From Aminomonas paucivorans DSM 12260 (GTDB lineage Bacteria > Synergistota > Synergistia > Synergistales > Synergistaceae), in NCBI RefSeq assembly GCF_000165795.1, contig NZ_CM001022.1, forward strand, positions 2,451,812-2,515,811: a stretch of DNA of 64,000 nt. Direction: 5' to 3'. Both the position numbers and the translations under genes were made by a program. The notes beneath the pieces were generated by a model. The model saw nothing but the letters and a program-made list of their open reading frames with translations, searched no databases and was not told where the DNA came from. This document shows, in pieces, positions 32,553-38,961 of this stretch (the first letter of the stretch is position 1; each line of letters starts with the position of its first letter).

Positions 32553-33734
32553 CTAAAGGTAGCGCACGAAGGTCCTCTTGAGGTACCGGGTCTCCAGAAG
32601 GGCCGCCAGGCTTCGCACCAGCCCCCGGCGCATTTCGATCTCCACGGGCAGGGAGGGGTCCTGGTGGGCCTCGTTGATCCGGGTCCCCACCACGAACTCG
32701 ATGACGTCGCTGTCCAGGAGCAGGTCCACCAGACGGCGGGCCCCGTCCCGGGGCTCGTCCAAGACCCCTTCGGTCTCCAGAAGCCGCCGGGCCTTGGTGA
32801 GGGTGAGGATCCCCTCCGTCACCAGGTCCACCCCCTCCATGCGGGACAGGGGGGGGAGGTTCCGGGTGGAGGTGCGCAGGTCCGTCTCCAGGGGACGCCC
32901 CAGCTCCCGGGAGACGATCTCCGCGGTGGTGCCCCCGCACACCACCGTGCGCCCCTCGAAGCCCGTCAGGAGGTGAGCGAACTCCCCGTCCCGGGAGGGG
33001 TCGAAGGGAGGTCCCGTGAGCACCCGACACCTCCGGGGGGTCCGGAAGTAGAGCACCGCGCAGGTCATGTCGTCCCCCGGGCGGTGCTGGGGCTCCTTCC
33101 AGAGGGCATCCCGCAGGACGGCCCGGCTCAGGCGATGGGCGGAGACCTGGGGATCCCGGCGGACCCGGTCCAGCACGAAGGCCTTCATCCGTTCCTCCCC
33201 CCAGCCCAGGGGGAACGCCGGGCTCCCCATGCCCGCCTGGGTGATGCCGTCGGACAGGAGCACCAGACGGTCCCCGGGGCGCGTGGCCACCTCGCTCTGC
33301 CGGAGGGTGCGGGCCTTCCAGCGGGAGGAGGAGAAGGAACGCTTCCCCACCGGGACCGCCTCCCCGTCCCGGACGAGGAGCACCCCCGGGTTGTCCATCT
33401 CCATGATGCGGGTCCACCCGTGGAGCACCGCCTCCACCACCGTGAAGGTGGCGTAGCTGATCCCCCTCTGGCGGCACACGGGCAGGGCGTCCATCATCAC
33501 GTCCGCGGACCGGAGGAACTCCATCTTCCCCTCCACGAACTTGAGGGCCATGGAGGCGGTCATGGAAGAGAGCACGTTGGCCTTCACCCCGCTGCCCAGT
33601 CCGTCGGAGAGCACCACGATGATCCGCCCCTCCCCCTCCACCCGGCGGGTGAGGAAGCTGTCCCCGCAGATGCGCTGCCCCTCCTTGCAGCACTGGGCCA
33701 CGTCCACCTCCAGAAACAGGGAGTCATCCTTCAC
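32553..33734 (-). CDS. SpoIIE/PP2C-family serine phosphatase
   Basis: Cytoplasmic protein phosphatase of 393 residues. The PPM core has CKEGQRICGDSF, VLSDGLGSGVKANVLSSMTASMALKF, RQRGISYATFTVVE, RPGDRLVLLSDGITQAG and HRPGDDMTCAVLYF, with the Mg2+-binding aspartates in GDS, SDG and GDD. About 140 further residues of unknown fold end in ETRYLKRTFVRYL. GTG 33734 overlaps the stop of the hydrogenase-sensor gene as GTGA, so output coupling is direct. The family often dephosphorylates anti-anti-sigma factors. Pairing with a hydrogenase-like sensor is known for sensory [FeFe]-hydrogenases, making this the probable signal output. Confidence 0.92.
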   Translation of the reverse strand: MKDDSLFLEVDVAQCCKEGQRICGDSFLTRRVEGEGRIIVVLSDGLGSGVKANVLSSMTASMALKFVEGKMEFLRSADVMMDALPVCRQRGISYATFTVVEAVLHGWTRIMEMDNPGVLLVRDGEAVPVGKRSFSSSRWKARTLRQSEVATRPGDRLVLLSDGITQAGMGSPAFPLGWGEERMKAFVLDRVRRDPQVSAHRLSRAVLRDALWKEPQHRPGDDMTCAVLYFRTPRRCRVLTGPPFDPSRDGEFAHLLTGFEGRTVVCGGTTAEIVSRELGRPLETDLRTSTRNLPPLSRMEGVDLVTEGILTLTKARRLLETEGVLDEPRDGARRLVDLLLDSDVIEFVVGTRINEAHQDPSLPVEIEMRRGLVRSLAALLETRYLKRTFVRYL

Positions 33735-35461
33735 GGCCGGTCCGCTCCCCCTTCCCGGGTCCGGGGGTCCGCGTAGCCCTCGGCGATGGACCGAAGGAGC
33801 ATCTCCGTCTCCGCCATGTGCTCCCCCAGGCGGCAGGCGATCTCCTGCACCGTGGAGAGGTTCCGGCGGATGACCTCCTCCGCCCGTTGGGCGATCTGCT
33901 CCCGCTTGATCTCCCGGTGGGTCACGTCCATCACCACCCCCCCCACGGTCTGCCCCGGATCGATGGGGAAGAGGGTGAGGTCGAAGAGCTGGTCCTTGTG
34001 GCGCAGCAGGTCCAGGTGCAGGTCCTCCCCCGTCTCCAAGGTGGCCCGAAAGAGGTCCGGGAAGGGGACGATCCGGTCCAGACGGGCCCCTTTGAGCCCC
34101 TCGCAGGCCCGGTAGGCCAGCAGGGCGTCCTCCCCGAAGAGGACGGCGAAGTGCTCGTTGCACTCCACGATGTTCAGGTCCCGGTCCACGATCACCACCC
34201 CCGAGGGCATGCACCGCAGCAGGGCGTTGGCCTTCCTCTGGGCCTGGTTGCGCATGTGGGATACGCACATGCTGGGCTCCGCCCTCCCCAGGACCAGGGC
34301 CCGGGCGAAGGCCCGGCAGGTGTCGTAGCCGCAGCCCCCGCAGTTCAGCTCGTCCTCCCGGCTCACCTTGCCCACCTGCCGGAGGGCGAGGCGGATCGCG
34401 TCCTCCCCCGGCTCCTCCACGTCCTCGGGACAGGACACGTAGGCCTGATGGAGTTCCAGTGTGGGGAGGCGGCGGATGGGCGCCTCGGGCACCTGGGCGT
34501 GCCCCTCCACCTGAGCCCGGCGCCAGAGCACCGGCGTGGTGGCCCGAGACCCCGGGCCGTTGACGCACCCCCCGGGACAGGCGAGACACTCCAGGAAACA
34601 GGGAACGTCCAGGGAGCCCGGGTCCAGCCCCTGCAGGGAGATGCGCAGGGCCTCCAGCCCCGAGACGGTGGCGAACCGAACCCGCTCCAGCCCCCCCTGG
34701 GCCCGGAGGGTCTCCGTCATACCTCCCTCCACGGGGTACAGGGCTCCCTCCTCCGCCTCCCGCAACAGGAACCGCCCCGTGGGGGGCAGGCTCCAGGGGT
34801 CCAGCCCCCGCTCCTCCAGCCACCGGTAGAGATCGTCGAAGGTCAGGGAGGCCTCCACTTCCCGAGGCCACCGATCCGCCTCCCGCTTCTTCGCCACGCA
34901 GGGCCCCACAAACACCACCGCCGTCTCCGCCCCCAAGGCCTCCCGAAGCAGACCGGCGTGGGCCCGCAGGGGAGAGGGCAGGGGCGTCAGGGAGCCCACC
35001 AGGTCGGGCAGGTACTTCTCCACGTACTCCACCGAGGCGGGACAGGCGGTGGAGAGGTACAGCCCCGGAGGGACGTCCTGGAGAAGCCGGGCGGTGGAAG
35101 CGCTCACCTCCTGGGCCCCCAGGGCGGTCTCCCCCACCCCGGCGAACCCCAGGGCCTCCAGGGCCGCCACCAGGGACCCCGCGGGAAGGTCCGGGAACTC
35201 CCCCACCCAGGAGGGGGCCAGGGAAACCACGACGGTGCGCCCCGAGGCCAACAGCTCCTCCACCCGGGAGCGATCGTCCCGGATGCACTTGGCCTTGGCC
35301 GGGCAGACCTCCACGCAGAGGCCGCAGGAGACGCACAGCTCCGGCAGCACCCGGGCGTGCCCCTCCTCCAGGCGGATGGCCTTCACGGGACACTGGCGCA
35401 GGCACTTGAAACAGTCGTGGCAGTTGTTCGTTTGGGTGTAGACGGGAAAGACCCGATCCAT
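33731..35461 (-). CDS. Sensory [FeFe]-hydrogenase-like protein with ferredoxin, FeS and PAS domains (HydS type)
   Basis: Soluble sensor of 576 residues. Two [4Fe-4S] ferredoxin motifs (C14, C17, C20, C24 and C43, C46, C49, C53) precede an H-cluster domain. L1 reads STACPASVEY, L2 GPCVAKKREAD and L3 ECLACPGGCVNGPG, keeping all four cluster cysteines but replacing the proton-relay cysteine of catalytic enzymes with Ala. Next come a small FeS domain (NCGGCGYDTCRAFA) and a PAS domain (ALLRCMPSGVVIVDRDLNIVECNEHFAVLFG), then a helical tail. This is the group C (sensory) layout; bulk H2 turnover is unlikely. ATG 35461 starts 8 nt after the small [2Fe-2S] gene, and the stop overlaps the SpoIIE gene. 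H2 or redox sensing is inferred from the family. Confidence 0.93.
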   Translation of the reverse strand: MDRVFPVYTQTNNCHDCFKCLRQCPVKAIRLEEGHARVLPELCVSCGLCVEVCPAKAKCIRDDRSRVEELLASGRTVVVSLAPSWVGEFPDLPAGSLVAALEALGFAGVGETALGAQEVSASTARLLQDVPPGLYLSTACPASVEYVEKYLPDLVGSLTPLPSPLRAHAGLLREALGAETAVVFVGPCVAKKREADRWPREVEASLTFDDLYRWLEERGLDPWSLPPTGRFLLREAEEGALYPVEGGMTETLRAQGGLERVRFATVSGLEALRISLQGLDPGSLDVPCFLECLACPGGCVNGPGSRATTPVLWRRAQVEGHAQVPEAPIRRLPTLELHQAYVSCPEDVEEPGEDAIRLALRQVGKVSREDELNCGGCGYDTCRAFARALVLGRAEPSMCVSHMRNQAQRKANALLRCMPSGVVIVDRDLNIVECNEHFAVLFGEDALLAYRACEGLKGARLDRIVPFPDLFRATLETGEDLHLDLLRHKDQLFDLTLFPIDPGQTVGGVVMDVTHREIKREQIAQRAEEVIRRNLSTVQEIACRLGEHMAETEMLLRSIAEGYADPRTREGGADRP

Positions 35462-35469
35462 GGGATCGC

Positions 35470-35754
35470 CTAAAGCAGCTCCCGCTCCAGCAGGGCGGGA
35501 AGGTCTTCCTGGTTGATCCGGGGGAACAGCCGATCCCCGATGCGCAGGTTCGGCCCCTGGGTGCAGGCCCCCTCGCAGCGGCTGCCCACCAGGGACACCC
35601 GATCCTCCATCCGGTGGTCCTTCAGGAACTGCCGGATCACCTCCAGGTTCTTCTGGTTCCCCCGGGCGAAACAGGAACTGCCCATGCAGAGGGTCAAGAC
35701 CACCCGCTCCCCCTTCTCCGTCGCGCTTCCCACCGGCTCTCCGCTTTCCGCCAC
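35470..35754 (-). CDS. Thioredoxin-like [2Fe-2S] ferredoxin (NuoE/HydC-like, short)
   Basis: Small protein of 94 residues with the thioredoxin-like [2Fe-2S] pattern: CMGSSCFARGN supplies the first two cysteines and CEGACTQGPNLRIGD the last two. This equals the C-terminal part of NuoE/HydC without the helical N-terminus. The start is GTG 35754 with GGGGGGAG about 6 nt upstream. First gene of the sensor operon, directly downstream of a promoter and a Rex-like site. It probably hands electrons between NADH-linked partners or ferredoxin and the hydrogenase-like sensor. Confidence 0.9.
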   Translation of the reverse strand: MAESGEPVGSATEKGERVVLTLCMGSSCFARGNQKNLEVIRQFLKDHRMEDRVSLVGSRCEGACTQGPNLRIGDRLFPRINQEDLPALLERELL

Positions 35755-35777
35755 CGCCGCTCCCCCCGTCCCTCGGT

Positions 35778-35795
35778 TTGTGCAAAAATTAACTT
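35778..35795. promoter_or_regulatory. Rex-like redox operator candidate
   Basis: TTGTGCAAAAATTAACTT has the 7-4-7 layout of Rex sites (TTGTTAA, four bases, TTAACAA), matching at 10 of 14 arm positions. It stands out in a GC-rich background. It lies just downstream of the -10 box of the hydrogenase-sensor operon, a position suited to NADH/NAD+-responsive repression. Confidence 0.5.
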
Positions 35796-35811
35796 TACCC
35801 CCGATCCCTCC

Positions 35812-35839
35812 ATCCTAACATCCCCTGCGGGGCCGTCAA
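35812..35839 (-). promoter_or_regulatory. sigma70-type promoter of the hydrogenase-sensor operon
   Basis: Minus-strand TTGACG (35839-35834) and TAGGAT (35817-35812) with a 16-bp spacer. The start point near 35805 precedes the Rex-like site and the first gene. Confidence 0.62.
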
Positions 35840-35979: not shown

Positions 35980-38742
35980 TCAGCGAGGCGCGCCCCCCTT
36001 GTCGTCCGGGATGTCGGAAATCCCCCTCCGTTTCCCTCGGTGACCCGAGGCCAACAGGGGCAGCAGGAGGACCGGCAGGCCGAAGCCCAGGAAGCAGCCC
36101 CCTCCGCCGCCGGAACCGGTGGGAGACACGGACACGGGGGACGTCGTCGTGGGCGTGGGGCTTCCCGGTACCCCCGAGGCGGGTACCGCCAGCAGGACGT
36201 TCAGGGTCCGGGCCGTCAGGACGCCGTCGGCCTTCCCGTCCAGGTCGTAGGGCCCCCCGTCGGCCAGGGGAAGGGGCAGCCAGGTCTCGGAGGAGGCGGA
36301 GCGGGCAGAGAAGCGCACGCTCTGGGGCAGCCACCACTTGCGGGTGGCGGGGTTCCACACCAGACACGCCCAACGGTAGGCATAGCCCCCTTCGAGGTGC
36401 AGGGGAGAGGGGATCTTCAGGGTCACCACCCCCCCCGGATCGGTGAGGTAGGTCACCGTGCCCCCCTGTCCCGTCAGCACCACCTGGTAGAGCAGGGGAT
36501 CGATGCCCGCGCCGAGCAGGGCTTCGAGCATCTCCGGAGACAGGTCCACATTCCCGGGGTTGGACCTTCCCGTGATCGGCAGGTCCGAAGGAGGGACGGG
36601 GGTGGGGGACACCAGGGGCGTGCCGCCCTCTACGGTGACCGACGGCTCCGGCAGCCCCGAGGGAAGCGGGTAGGGAAAGGGGGTCGGAGAAGGTCCCGGC
36701 GTGGGGGAGGGACCGGGCGTGGGGGTGGGACCCGGCGTGGGCGTCACGGCGGCGGGATCCAGCTCGTAGGCTCCCATGTCGTACCCCGCCCCCTTGGGGC
36801 GCCCCACCCCCCGCTGGTCCGTGGCGGGAGCCCCGCCGTCCGTCCCCCCGTCCACGGCGGAGCTGCCCCAGGGCAGGGCACAGGTCTTGGTGGGGCCGCC
36901 GTTGTCCGCCAAGGGGCCCAGGTTCGGGTTGGCGAAGCGGTTTCCCGTTCCCGAAAAGCCTCCCTTGACGACGCAGTAGGTCACGGTGGGCCAAAGGGCG
37001 CCGGAAAACTCCTCCGTGCTTTCGTTCCAGAAGATGCAGTTCTTCGCCGTGATGTTCCCGCTACCCGTACACGCCACCACGGTTCCCGCAGAGGCGCTGT
37101 TGCCCGACAGCGTGCAGTTGGTCAACGTGGCGTTTTGCAGGGTGTACAGACCCCCTCCGTTCGCCGCGTTGTTGCCCGAAAGGGTGCCGTTCGTCAGCGT
37201 GACGGTGCTGGCGTTGCACAGGCCCCCTCCGTTCGTGGCGCTGTTGCCCGACAACGTGCAGGCCGTCAACGTGGCGTTTTGCGCGTTGTACAAGCCCCCT
37301 CCGCCCGCCGCGCTGTTCCCCGAAAGAGTGCAGTGGGTCAACGTCGCGGTACCGCTGGCGTTGTACAAGCCCCCGCCGCAGATCGTGGCGCTGTTGCCCG
37401 ACAACGTGCAGGCCGTCAACGTGGCGCTTTGCGCGTTGTGCAGGCCCCCTCCGTCCTCCGCGCTGCCCCCCGAGAGGGTGCAGTCCGTCAGCGTCACGGT
37501 GGCGTTGTCGTTGCACACCCCCCCGCCCCGCAGAACCGCCGTGTTGTCCGAAAAGGTGCAGCGGGTCAACGTGGCGGTACCGCCTTGACGGTTGTGAAAA
37601 CCCCCACCGTGGTTCGTGGCGCTGTTCCCCGAAAGGGTGCAGTCGGCCATGACCAGGGTGCCGCTGTAATCGCTCAGTCCCCCGCCGTACTTTGCGCTGT
37701 TCCCCGAAAGGGTGCAGCCCGTCAGCGTCTGGTTGCCGGTTAGGTTGACCAACCCCCCGCCGTAGTCCGTGGCGCTGTTGCCCGAAAGGGTGCAGCCCGT
37801 CAGCGTCTGGTTGCCGCCGTCAACGCACATCCCCCCGCCGTACTTTGCGCTGTTCCCCGAAAGGGTGCAATGGGACAGGGTTGGGTTGCCGCCCCCCTGG
37901 TTGTACAGCCCCCCACCCCGTTCCGTGGCGCTGTTGCCCGACAACGTGCAGTCCGTCAACACCGGGGTGCTGTTGACGCTGTACACCCCCCCACCGAAGC
38001 TCGTGGCGCTGTTCCCCGACAATGTACAGCCTGTCAGCACCGCGTTGCCCCCCGAAAGAGCGTGGATCGCGCCTCCGAGGTCTGCCGTGTTCCCCGTAAA
38101 GGTGCTGTTCGTCACCGTAGGGCTGCAGGCGATGACGAACATGCCCCCTCCCCACTTCGTCGCAGCGTTCCCCGAGAAGGTGCAGTTCGCCACCGTGACG
38201 CTGGAAAGGTCGATGAGCATCCCGCCGGCGCGGGAGGTGGTGTCGTGGGGGTTACCCACGTCCGCTCTTCCCCCGGTGACGGTGAAGCCGTCGAGGACGG
38301 CGGTGGCGTCCGTACCATTCGCCGTCACCACGTGGTAGCTGTTGTCCGTCGCACTTGCGGGGTCGCCGAGGTTCCCCGAGAGGATCGTGACGTTTCCCGC
38401 TGCGTTCCGCTGGGTTCGGGCCGTCTCGGTGCCTCCGAAGCCGCCGTAGAGGGCCACGCCGGTCTTCAGGACGAAGGACACGCTCCGGTCCGCATCGGCG
38501 GTGGGGTTGTACGTCCCCGCCGCCACCCAAAACTCCGTGGCCCCGTTTCCGGGCGCCCCGCCTAACACCGTGCGGAACTCCGCCTCGCCGCAGGCGTCGG
38601 CCCAGCTGCTGCCGTCCTTCGCCCCCGCGCCGCTCGGGGTGACGCGCACCACCGCCGCCTCCGCCCGCAGGCACATCAGGGAAAGGACCAGCGCGAAGAC
38701 CCCCACCCACCGCAACCAAGGACGACCTGCACGCATCTCCAT
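35980..38742 (-). CDS. Secreted beta-helix repeat surface protein with Synergist-CTERM-type tail
   Basis: Exported protein of 920 residues. A signal peptide (WLRWVGVFALVLSLMCLRAEA) is followed by a domain typical of right-handed beta-helix proteins (GSSWADACGEAEFRTVL, ATEFWVAAGTYNPT). About fourteen repeats of the form CTLSGNSAT..GGGL.N...TLT follow, the polymorphic-outer-membrane-protein pattern, then a Pro/Thr/Gly linker (PTPGP repeats) and a C-terminal domain. The C-terminus GGGGGCFLGFGLPVLLLPLL plus a basic tail has the Gly-Cys, hydrophobic, Arg/Lys layout of the Synergist-CTERM sorting signal. I chose ATG 38742, 8 nt after GGAGG. Probably an adhesin or surface-layer-associated protein, divergent from a membrane LuxR-type regulator that may control it. 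Confidence 0.88.
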   Translation of the reverse strand: MEMRAGRPWLRWVGVFALVLSLMCLRAEAAVVRVTPSGAGAKDGSSWADACGEAEFRTVLGGAPGNGATEFWVAAGTYNPTADADRSVSFVLKTGVALYGGFGGTETARTQRNAAGNVTILSGNLGDPASATDNSYHVVTANGTDATAVLDGFTVTGGRADVGNPHDTTSRAGGMLIDLSSVTVANCTFSGNAATKWGGGMFVIACSPTVTNSTFTGNTADLGGAIHALSGGNAVLTGCTLSGNSATSFGGGVYSVNSTPVLTDCTLSGNSATERGGGLYNQGGGNPTLSHCTLSGNSAKYGGGMCVDGGNQTLTGCTLSGNSATDYGGGLVNLTGNQTLTGCTLSGNSAKYGGGLSDYSGTLVMADCTLSGNSATNHGGGFHNRQGGTATLTRCTFSDNTAVLRGGGVCNDNATVTLTDCTLSGGSAEDGGGLHNAQSATLTACTLSGNSATICGGGLYNASGTATLTHCTLSGNSAAGGGGLYNAQNATLTACTLSGNSATNGGGLCNASTVTLTNGTLSGNNAANGGGLYTLQNATLTNCTLSGNSASAGTVVACTGSGNITAKNCIFWNESTEEFSGALWPTVTYCVVKGGFSGTGNRFANPNLGPLADNGGPTKTCALPWGSSAVDGGTDGGAPATDQRGVGRPKGAGYDMGAYELDPAAVTPTPGPTPTPGPSPTPGPSPTPFPYPLPSGLPEPSVTVEGGTPLVSPTPVPPSDLPITGRSNPGNVDLSPEMLEALLGAGIDPLLYQVVLTGQGGTVTYLTDPGGVVTLKIPSPLHLEGGYAYRWACLVWNPATRKWWLPQSVRFSARSASSETWLPLPLADGGPYDLDGKADGVLTARTLNVLLAVPASGVPGSPTPTTTSPVSVSPTGSGGGGGCFLGFGLPVLLLPLLASGHRGKRRGISDIPDDKGGAPR
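37060..38190 (-). repeat. Tandem coding repeats of the beta-helix protein
   Basis: About fourteen degenerate in-frame units of roughly 60-80 bp recur, each containing a GTTGCCCGA or GTTCCCCGA core (plus strand) that encodes SGNS. The third units from each end are nearly identical in places, suggesting recent unit duplication or exchange. This is repeat structure inside a gene, not a CRISPR. Confidence 0.8.
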
Positions 38743-38961
38743 CCCCATCTCCTCCCTCTCCTCTTCCATCCGCCGCACCCGCAAGCTCTCGGCGAGGGCA
38801 CGACGAACCGGCCCCTTCGGGAGGCTTGGGGGAAAGCTACCAGAGGCAGGGGGGGTCTCCAAGGGTGATTTTTCTCACCCCCCCGAGGAAAGCCCGTAAC
38901 CGCAAGGGCTTAGAGGACCTTCCTTTTTCGTGTTATGCTTGAAAAAAGGGGAGGTGGGAGG

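Follow-up and report, generated by a model that had tools for sequence, protein, structure and literature searches.

What signal is read, and what is regulated, by an operon that places a hydrogenase-like protein directly ahead of a protein phosphatase? The question is raised by a 64,000-nucleotide stretch of the Aminomonas paucivorans DSM 12260 genome (contig NZ_CM001022.1, positions 2,451,812 to 2,515,811; hereafter the window), on the minus strand of which positions 32553-35839 hold three genes in the order [2Fe-2S] protein, HydS and SpoIIE/PP2C phosphatase. The genome consists of one contig of 2,630,170 bases, to which coordinates prefixed C1 refer, with a guanine-cytosine content of about 67-70% in the stretches examined. 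Judged from gene anatomy, conservation and published relatives, the operon is probably (roughly 0.7) a group C3, or phosphatase-linked, sensory [FeFe]-hydrogenase system, in which a sensor of molecular hydrogen (H2) or of redox state, built on a slow type of hydrogenase, would be wired to a phosphatase. This is not a new kind of operon, as HydDB already names [FeFe] group C3 'phosphatase-linked (putative)' (PMC5037454). The genes, with putative start codons, and the predicted promoter are the following.

35470..35754, minus strand: gene 1, thioredoxin-like [2Fe-2S] protein of 94 amino acids (aa), GTG at 35754 to stop at 35470; PF01257
33731..35461, minus strand: gene 2, HydS, group C3 sensory [FeFe]-hydrogenase of 576 aa by its domains and tree position, ATG at 35461 to stop at 33731
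32553..33734, minus strand: gene 3, SpoIIE-type PP2C phosphatase of 393 aa, GTG at 33734 to stop at 32553; PF07228
35812..35839, minus strand: predicted sigma70-like promoter ahead of the operon, TTGACG-16-TAGGAT with an extended -10, from a consensus scan

The sequence-only reading of this DNA had proposed a compact three-gene operon, and the comparison with relatives bears this out. The [2Fe-2S] gene is separated from HydS by 8 nucleotides (nt), and the phosphatase start and the HydS stop share 4 nt (GTGA). A scan of GTDB genomes with an alignment of the phosphatase confirmed at least 584 relatives; the best 80 of these, which by their record titles span at least 15 phyla, were studied alongside about 20 loci from Synergistota. 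HydS immediately precedes the phosphatase in 94 of the 96 loci with enough upstream sequence, a conserved order that excludes a chance arrangement, and stop-to-start distances within the operons of relatives mostly fall between -29 and +10 nt. The promoter scan returned 1 match, against 0.1 expected after shuffling; this predicted promoter, whose start coincides with position 35839, the upper limit that had been set for the operon from the sequence alone, is closely preceded by a terminator-like hairpin. In one relative (locus L066, genome G112) HydS is read from the other strand, divergently from the [2Fe-2S] and phosphatase genes, which is possibly a rearrangement or an assembly error in a draft genome.

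The assignment to group C3 draws on the domain order and active site of HydS, in which four regions can be delimited.

35291..35440, minus strand: N-terminal 2x[4Fe-4S] domain, residues 8-57; Pfam Fer4_7/Fer4_10
34553..35236, minus strand: H-cluster domain, residues 76-303; PF02906, E 4e-41
34262..34348, minus strand: C-terminal [4Fe-4S] motif, residues 372-400; PF04060 (FeS), E 4e-12
33920..34225, minus strand: PAS domain, about residues 413-514; PAS_8, E 4e-6 (residues 413-461), and PAS_9

A C-terminal [4Fe-4S] motif followed by a PAS domain is the anatomy of group C, and a serine/threonine (Ser/Thr) phosphatase gene adjoining the sensor, here by overlap, is that of C3. The eight cysteines of the N-terminal domain are each kept in 87-94 of 94 HydS proteins, and the four of the C-terminal motif are invariant in all 94. 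The idea that the PAS domain holds an additional metal site was rejected, as its cysteines are not conserved. With catalytic-site residues numbered after CpI, the H-cluster ligands C300, C355, C499 and C503 are all present, the PCxxKxxE and CxxxC motifs are intact, and Lys358 (Lys191 of HydS) and Glu361 are kept. The L1 motif reads STACP, placing Ala139 at the position of the proton-relay Cys299, and Met353 and Met497 are replaced by Gly186 and Leu293, respectively. Retention of the cluster cysteines with alanine in place of the relay cysteine had been noticed from the sequence alone, and the substitution proved typical, occurring in 71 of the 94 phosphatase-linked HydS proteins; across all sensory enzymes alanine is found at this position in about 43% (PMC10055695).

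Placement by profile and by phylogeny agrees with the earlier proposal of a group C-type sensor distinct from the catalytic groups A and B. Against the NCBIfam profiles, HydS falls well short of the cut-off for both group A (TIGR02512, 98 versus 406 bits) and group B (TIGR04105, 163 versus 450 bits). In a maximum likelihood tree of the H-cluster domain (quick search, 96 rows, constructed from sequences other than the published group C and D references such as TmHydS), HydS falls in a 43-row phosphatase-linked clade with a Shimodaira-Hasegawa-like approximate likelihood-ratio (SH-aLRT) support of 96, separate from HydABC-type group A proteins (99) and from group B-type proteins of about 485 aa (97). 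Three of the latter were scanned, and all exceed the TIGR04105 cut-off.

Some HydS proteins depart from this pattern. Motif searches had suggested that the Bacteroidales proteins of 616-626 aa possess no H-cluster site, an idea that was cut back when alignment showed the ligand cysteines to be mostly kept and Lys358 lost. Such divergent proteins lie beside the phosphatase at Bacteroidales loci L123, L135, L142, L148, L149, L154 and L159, that of L149 being truncated to 575 aa, and in Marinifilum (L139, L147) a divergent HydS without Lys358 is found in tandem arrays of normal and divergent HydS-phosphatase pairs. A second operon type, about 30% identical, is present in Synergistota (L075-L081), with cysteine at the proton-relay position of HydS.

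The surroundings of the operon in relatives point to hydrogen metabolism. Hydrogenase genes are neighbours in 52 of the 73 loci with full flanks, either as a downstream group B-type hydrogenase of about 485 aa (34 of 73) or as a HydABC/HydA operon (18 of 73). Also recurring nearby are a second [2Fe-2S] protein, HydF, a radical-SAM protein with a BATS domain (HydG-like), an AdhE-like alcohol/aldehyde dehydrogenase and a Rex-like regulator, and on the strength of these families the setting is taken to be fermentative H2 and electron disposal. The catalytic HydA of Aminomonas itself scores above the cut-off of NF040763 (NADH-dependent A6) and is encoded elsewhere, in a HydABC-type operon at C1:266-271 kb.

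The small first gene had been read as an unusual extra component suggestive of an NADH- or ferredoxin-linked input. It is no oddity: a [2Fe-2S] gene precedes HydS in 78 of the 91 loci with enough sequence and is standard equipment of such operons. Its product matches only the C-terminal half of PF01257 (profile positions 64-142 of 145, E 4e-9) and thus corresponds to a half-length NuoE-like domain, with cysteines 23, 28, 60 and 64 that are kept in 76-77 of 77 aligned orthologues. Because the protein is of half length and has neither a flavin or NADH domain of its own nor a flavin/NADH subunit encoded beside it, an input linked to NADH does not follow, and of the original suggestion only a ferredoxin-like role still stands as a possibility, alongside a role as protein partner. 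We infer, modestly, that the gene 1 product may transfer electrons between a carrier and HydS.

The phosphatase matches PF07228 (SpoIIE, E 2e-12) and is predicted by AlphaFold2 with a mean predicted local distance difference test (pLDDT) score of 91 over the whole protein. The metal-binding and catalytic residues D25, D44-G45, D162-G163 and D221-D222 are invariant in 61 relatives, and the phosphatase output proposed earlier is to that extent borne out, as anatomy: the enzyme is co-encoded with the sensor and its catalytic residues are intact. Downstream of the catalytic domain lies a further region.

32553..33038, minus strand: phosphatase C-terminal domain (about 160 aa), residues 233-393, predicted Rossmann-like alpha/beta fold

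Residues 233-393 have no match in Pfam, NCBIfam or PDB sequences. Across the same 61 aligned relatives, which span at least 15 phyla, 11 residues of this domain are invariant (G241, P243, D249, G267, T269, P294, E307, G308, T311, G350 and N354) and H357 and Q358 nearly so, making it the most conserved part of the system that is still without an explanation. The AlphaFold2 model of the domain is confident (pLDDT 92) and shows a Rossmann-like alpha/beta fold. A Foldseek search with the domain gave only weak matches (best E 7e-4, template-modelling score 0.24), and VIA-align paired it with FhcB/FwdB (molybdopterin-oxidoreductase-like) domains at Z 8.5-9.6, where the usual background is 7-8. Since these structural matches scarcely exceed background, FhcB/FwdB was rejected as a solved relative and the domain is described only as Rossmann-like; it would presumably bind a ligand or a protein partner.

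Comparison with known systems places the operon among characterized sensors and sets out where it differs. As in the C3 class of HydDB, an H-cluster sensor gene is linked to a serine/threonine phosphatase gene, and the same logic is proposed; the published class gives the linkage only, to which the [2Fe-2S] gene, the phosphatase C-terminal domain and the maturase-free relatives described below are added here. An H2-sensing role was proposed in Ruminococcus albus for an H-cluster/PAS subunit that is encoded with a Ser/Thr phosphatase subunit, as summarized in PMC6776011 with reference to Zheng 2014; the cluster is regulated with H2 and was 111-fold lower when R. albus was co-cultured with Wolinella succinogenes (PMC6776011). 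The R. albus cluster shares its transcript with a catalytic hydrogenase and AdhE, whereas the Aminomonas operon stands alone. The biochemically characterized TmHydS (group C) of Thermotoga maritima shares with HydS the domain order, alanine at C299 and glycine at M353, whereas M497 is serine there and leucine here (PMC8163306); a [2Fe-2S] protein has been reported from the T. maritima iron-hydrogenase operon, going by the title of Pan 2003 cited in PMC10055695. TamHydS of Thermoanaerobacter mathranii, in group D and also characterized biochemically, is likewise a low-activity sensory type with a C-terminal [4Fe-4S] motif, and carries serine at M353 and, like HydS, leucine at M497 (PMC8163306), but it has no PAS domain, neighbours a histidine-kinase-like ATPase and has no reported phosphatase. 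The phosphatase shares the catalytic fold and metal-binding aspartates of SpoIIE and RsbU PP2C enzymes and differs from them in its extra C-terminal alpha/beta domain, in that no STAS partner was found, and in that HydS replaces the usual regulatory domains.

A TamHydS-like locus is found elsewhere in the Aminomonas genome (C1:1191574). There, a second and very divergent sensory-type hydrogenase of 434 aa without a PAS domain (C1:1190502-1192647, L064:3503-5648) is preceded by genes for a DRTGG protein and a histidine-kinase-like ATPase, an arrangement similar to that of group D TamHydS. In ten Synergistota genomes that were checked, the PF02906 proteins are of the TamHydS-like kind only, with no HydF.

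A sensory reading of the operon would involve the following chain of events. The [2Fe-2S] protein and the N-terminal clusters would exchange electrons with the H-cluster, and the state of the clusters would be set by H2 pressure or by the redox state of electron carriers; the C-terminal [4Fe-4S] motif and the PAS domain would pass this state, through direct contact, to the co-translated phosphatase. The phosphatase would then dephosphorylate serine or threonine residues of a regulator other than the STAS proteins of the genome, possibly recognizing its substrate through its own C-terminal domain, with the outcome that hydrogenase and fermentative electron-disposal genes are adjusted. The nearest candidate target in Aminomonas would be the NADH-dependent HydABC-type operon, acting in trans. 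In favor of an H2/redox sensor wired to a phosphatase are the C299A, M353G and M497L replacements with the cluster ligands kept, the hydrogenase neighbours in relatives, and the co-culture response of R. albus. Several observations weigh against it. The operon adjoins no catalytic hydrogenase in Aminomonas, and the genome paper of A. paucivorans lists acetate and formate and leaves hydrogen unmentioned (PMC3035310). HydE (C1:702660-703688) and HydF (C1:703738-704904) are encoded in the genome, but HydG was not found with TIGR03955 at E <= 1e-30, the BATS-domain proteins being HydE and BioB only, and assembly of the H-cluster is therefore not assured. Furthermore, the C-terminal cluster of TamHydS is not reduced by H2 (PMC13104023), which undermines signalling through the redox state of that cluster, and the sensory role of such enzymes is still termed putative (PMC8924675).

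That HydS is simply a low-rate catalytic hydrogenase with an incidental phosphatase neighbour would accord with its intact H-cluster ligands and with the measurable activity that the group C enzyme TmHydS retains (PMC10055695). The replaced proton-relay cysteine, the PAS and C-terminal Fe-S domains, and the near-constant pairing of HydS with the phosphatase make this extremely improbable. Classical partner switching, in which the phosphatase would dephosphorylate a STAS anti-anti-sigma factor and thereby free a sigma factor, has in its favor that the catalytic domain is of the SpoIIE/RsbU type, with 3pu9, 5mqh and 3ke6 as the closest solved folds, and that the genome encodes three STAS proteins and several anti-sigma-like ATPases. 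The search for such partners elsewhere in the genome, which the sequence-only reading had recommended, yielded no unclaimed STAS protein, as the three that were found each have a HATPase and a SpoIIE of their own no more than about 6 kb away.

C1:58-65 kb, 340-344 kb and 2578-2583 kb: STAS/HATPase/SpoIIE modules

Nor does any STAS or anti-sigma family recur around the operon at about 100 loci, and the phosphatase has a large domain in addition to the catalytic one. A HATPase match at about 23.2 kb in the window was discarded as a partner, since the long open reading frame reads by eye as an ATPase-acetyltransferase fusion and is unlinked to the operon. With each STAS protein in a module of its own and none recurring at the operon, classical partner switching is very unlikely, although a partner in trans may exist.

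A different case can be made that HydS reads the reduction of carriers, rather than H2, through the [2Fe-2S] protein and the [4Fe-4S] clusters, with an H-cluster that is optional or lost and the phosphatase output as the conserved core. The ligand cysteines C300, C355 and C503 and 12 Fe-S cysteines are conserved in nearly all of the 94 HydS proteins, yet Lys358 is lost in 17, and a Rex-like protein, of a family that senses NADH/NAD+, recurs as a neighbour. Furthermore, five Synergistota genomes (G029, G043, G087, G105 and G122; loci L042, L067, L070, L071 and L074) retain the HydS-phosphatase operon and yet gave no match to a catalytic group A/B [FeFe]-hydrogenase, HydF, HydG or any BATS-domain protein, so that HydE was not found either. 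In all five, Lys358 of HydS is replaced by arginine or serine, and the Fe-S cysteines are kept (in G029 the N-terminal part lies outside the stretch read). That HydG was not found in Aminomonas itself fits the same picture, and TIGR03955 likewise found no HydG in Synergistota G038, G040, G052, G112 and G076; in some acetogens hydG was missed, and weak activation in vitro by HydE and HydF alone has been described (PMC9431212). On the other side, HydS of the window retains Lys358, Glu361 and all ligands in a genome with HydE and HydF, and most relatives adjoin H2-evolving hydrogenases. The maturase-free genomes are also a narrow sample: four of the five come from two genera of one family, so that maturase loss may reflect few events, perhaps only two independent losses, and their completeness is 100, 98, 99, 82 and 93%, with several being drafts. 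As an account of the Aminomonas operon, a sensor of carrier redox state and not of H2 is rather unlikely. The maturase-free relatives nevertheless suggest, from gene content, that the [2Fe-2S]-HydS-phosphatase unit can work without an H-cluster, and together with the failure to find HydG in Aminomonas they leave room for the group C3 switch possibly reading Fe-S redox state, and not H2 alone.

Immediately upstream of the operon, also on the minus strand, lies a gene for a large secreted-type protein (35980-38862), which contains numerous imperfect repeats, each about 20-25 aa long, that follow the pattern 'LTxCTLSGNSAxxxGGGLY'.

In the literature searched, which comprised open-licence papers only and is weak evidence of absence, no description was found of the phosphatase C-terminal domain, of the near-universal presence of the [2Fe-2S] gene across phyla, or of the maturase-free relatives, and it is these three elements that appear to be new here. 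A tentative and rather doubtful extension would be that the unit is fundamentally a redox switch based on iron-sulfur clusters, with an optional H-cluster, that some lineages have lost both H-cluster biosynthesis and Lys358, and that the signal is conveyed by a phosphatase with an undescribed ligand- or partner-binding alpha/beta domain.

For the physiology of group C sensors and the target of their phosphatase, the Aminomonas locus provides handles as a single stand-alone operon in a cultured bacterium, whose strain GLU-3 has propionate in place of acetate as its main product when co-cultured with the methanogen Methanobacterium formicicum (PMC3035310). The phosphatase C-terminal domain offers a further handle in its short list of invariant residues, and the natural maturase-free relatives allow hypotheses of H2 sensing and of plain redox sensing to be separated.

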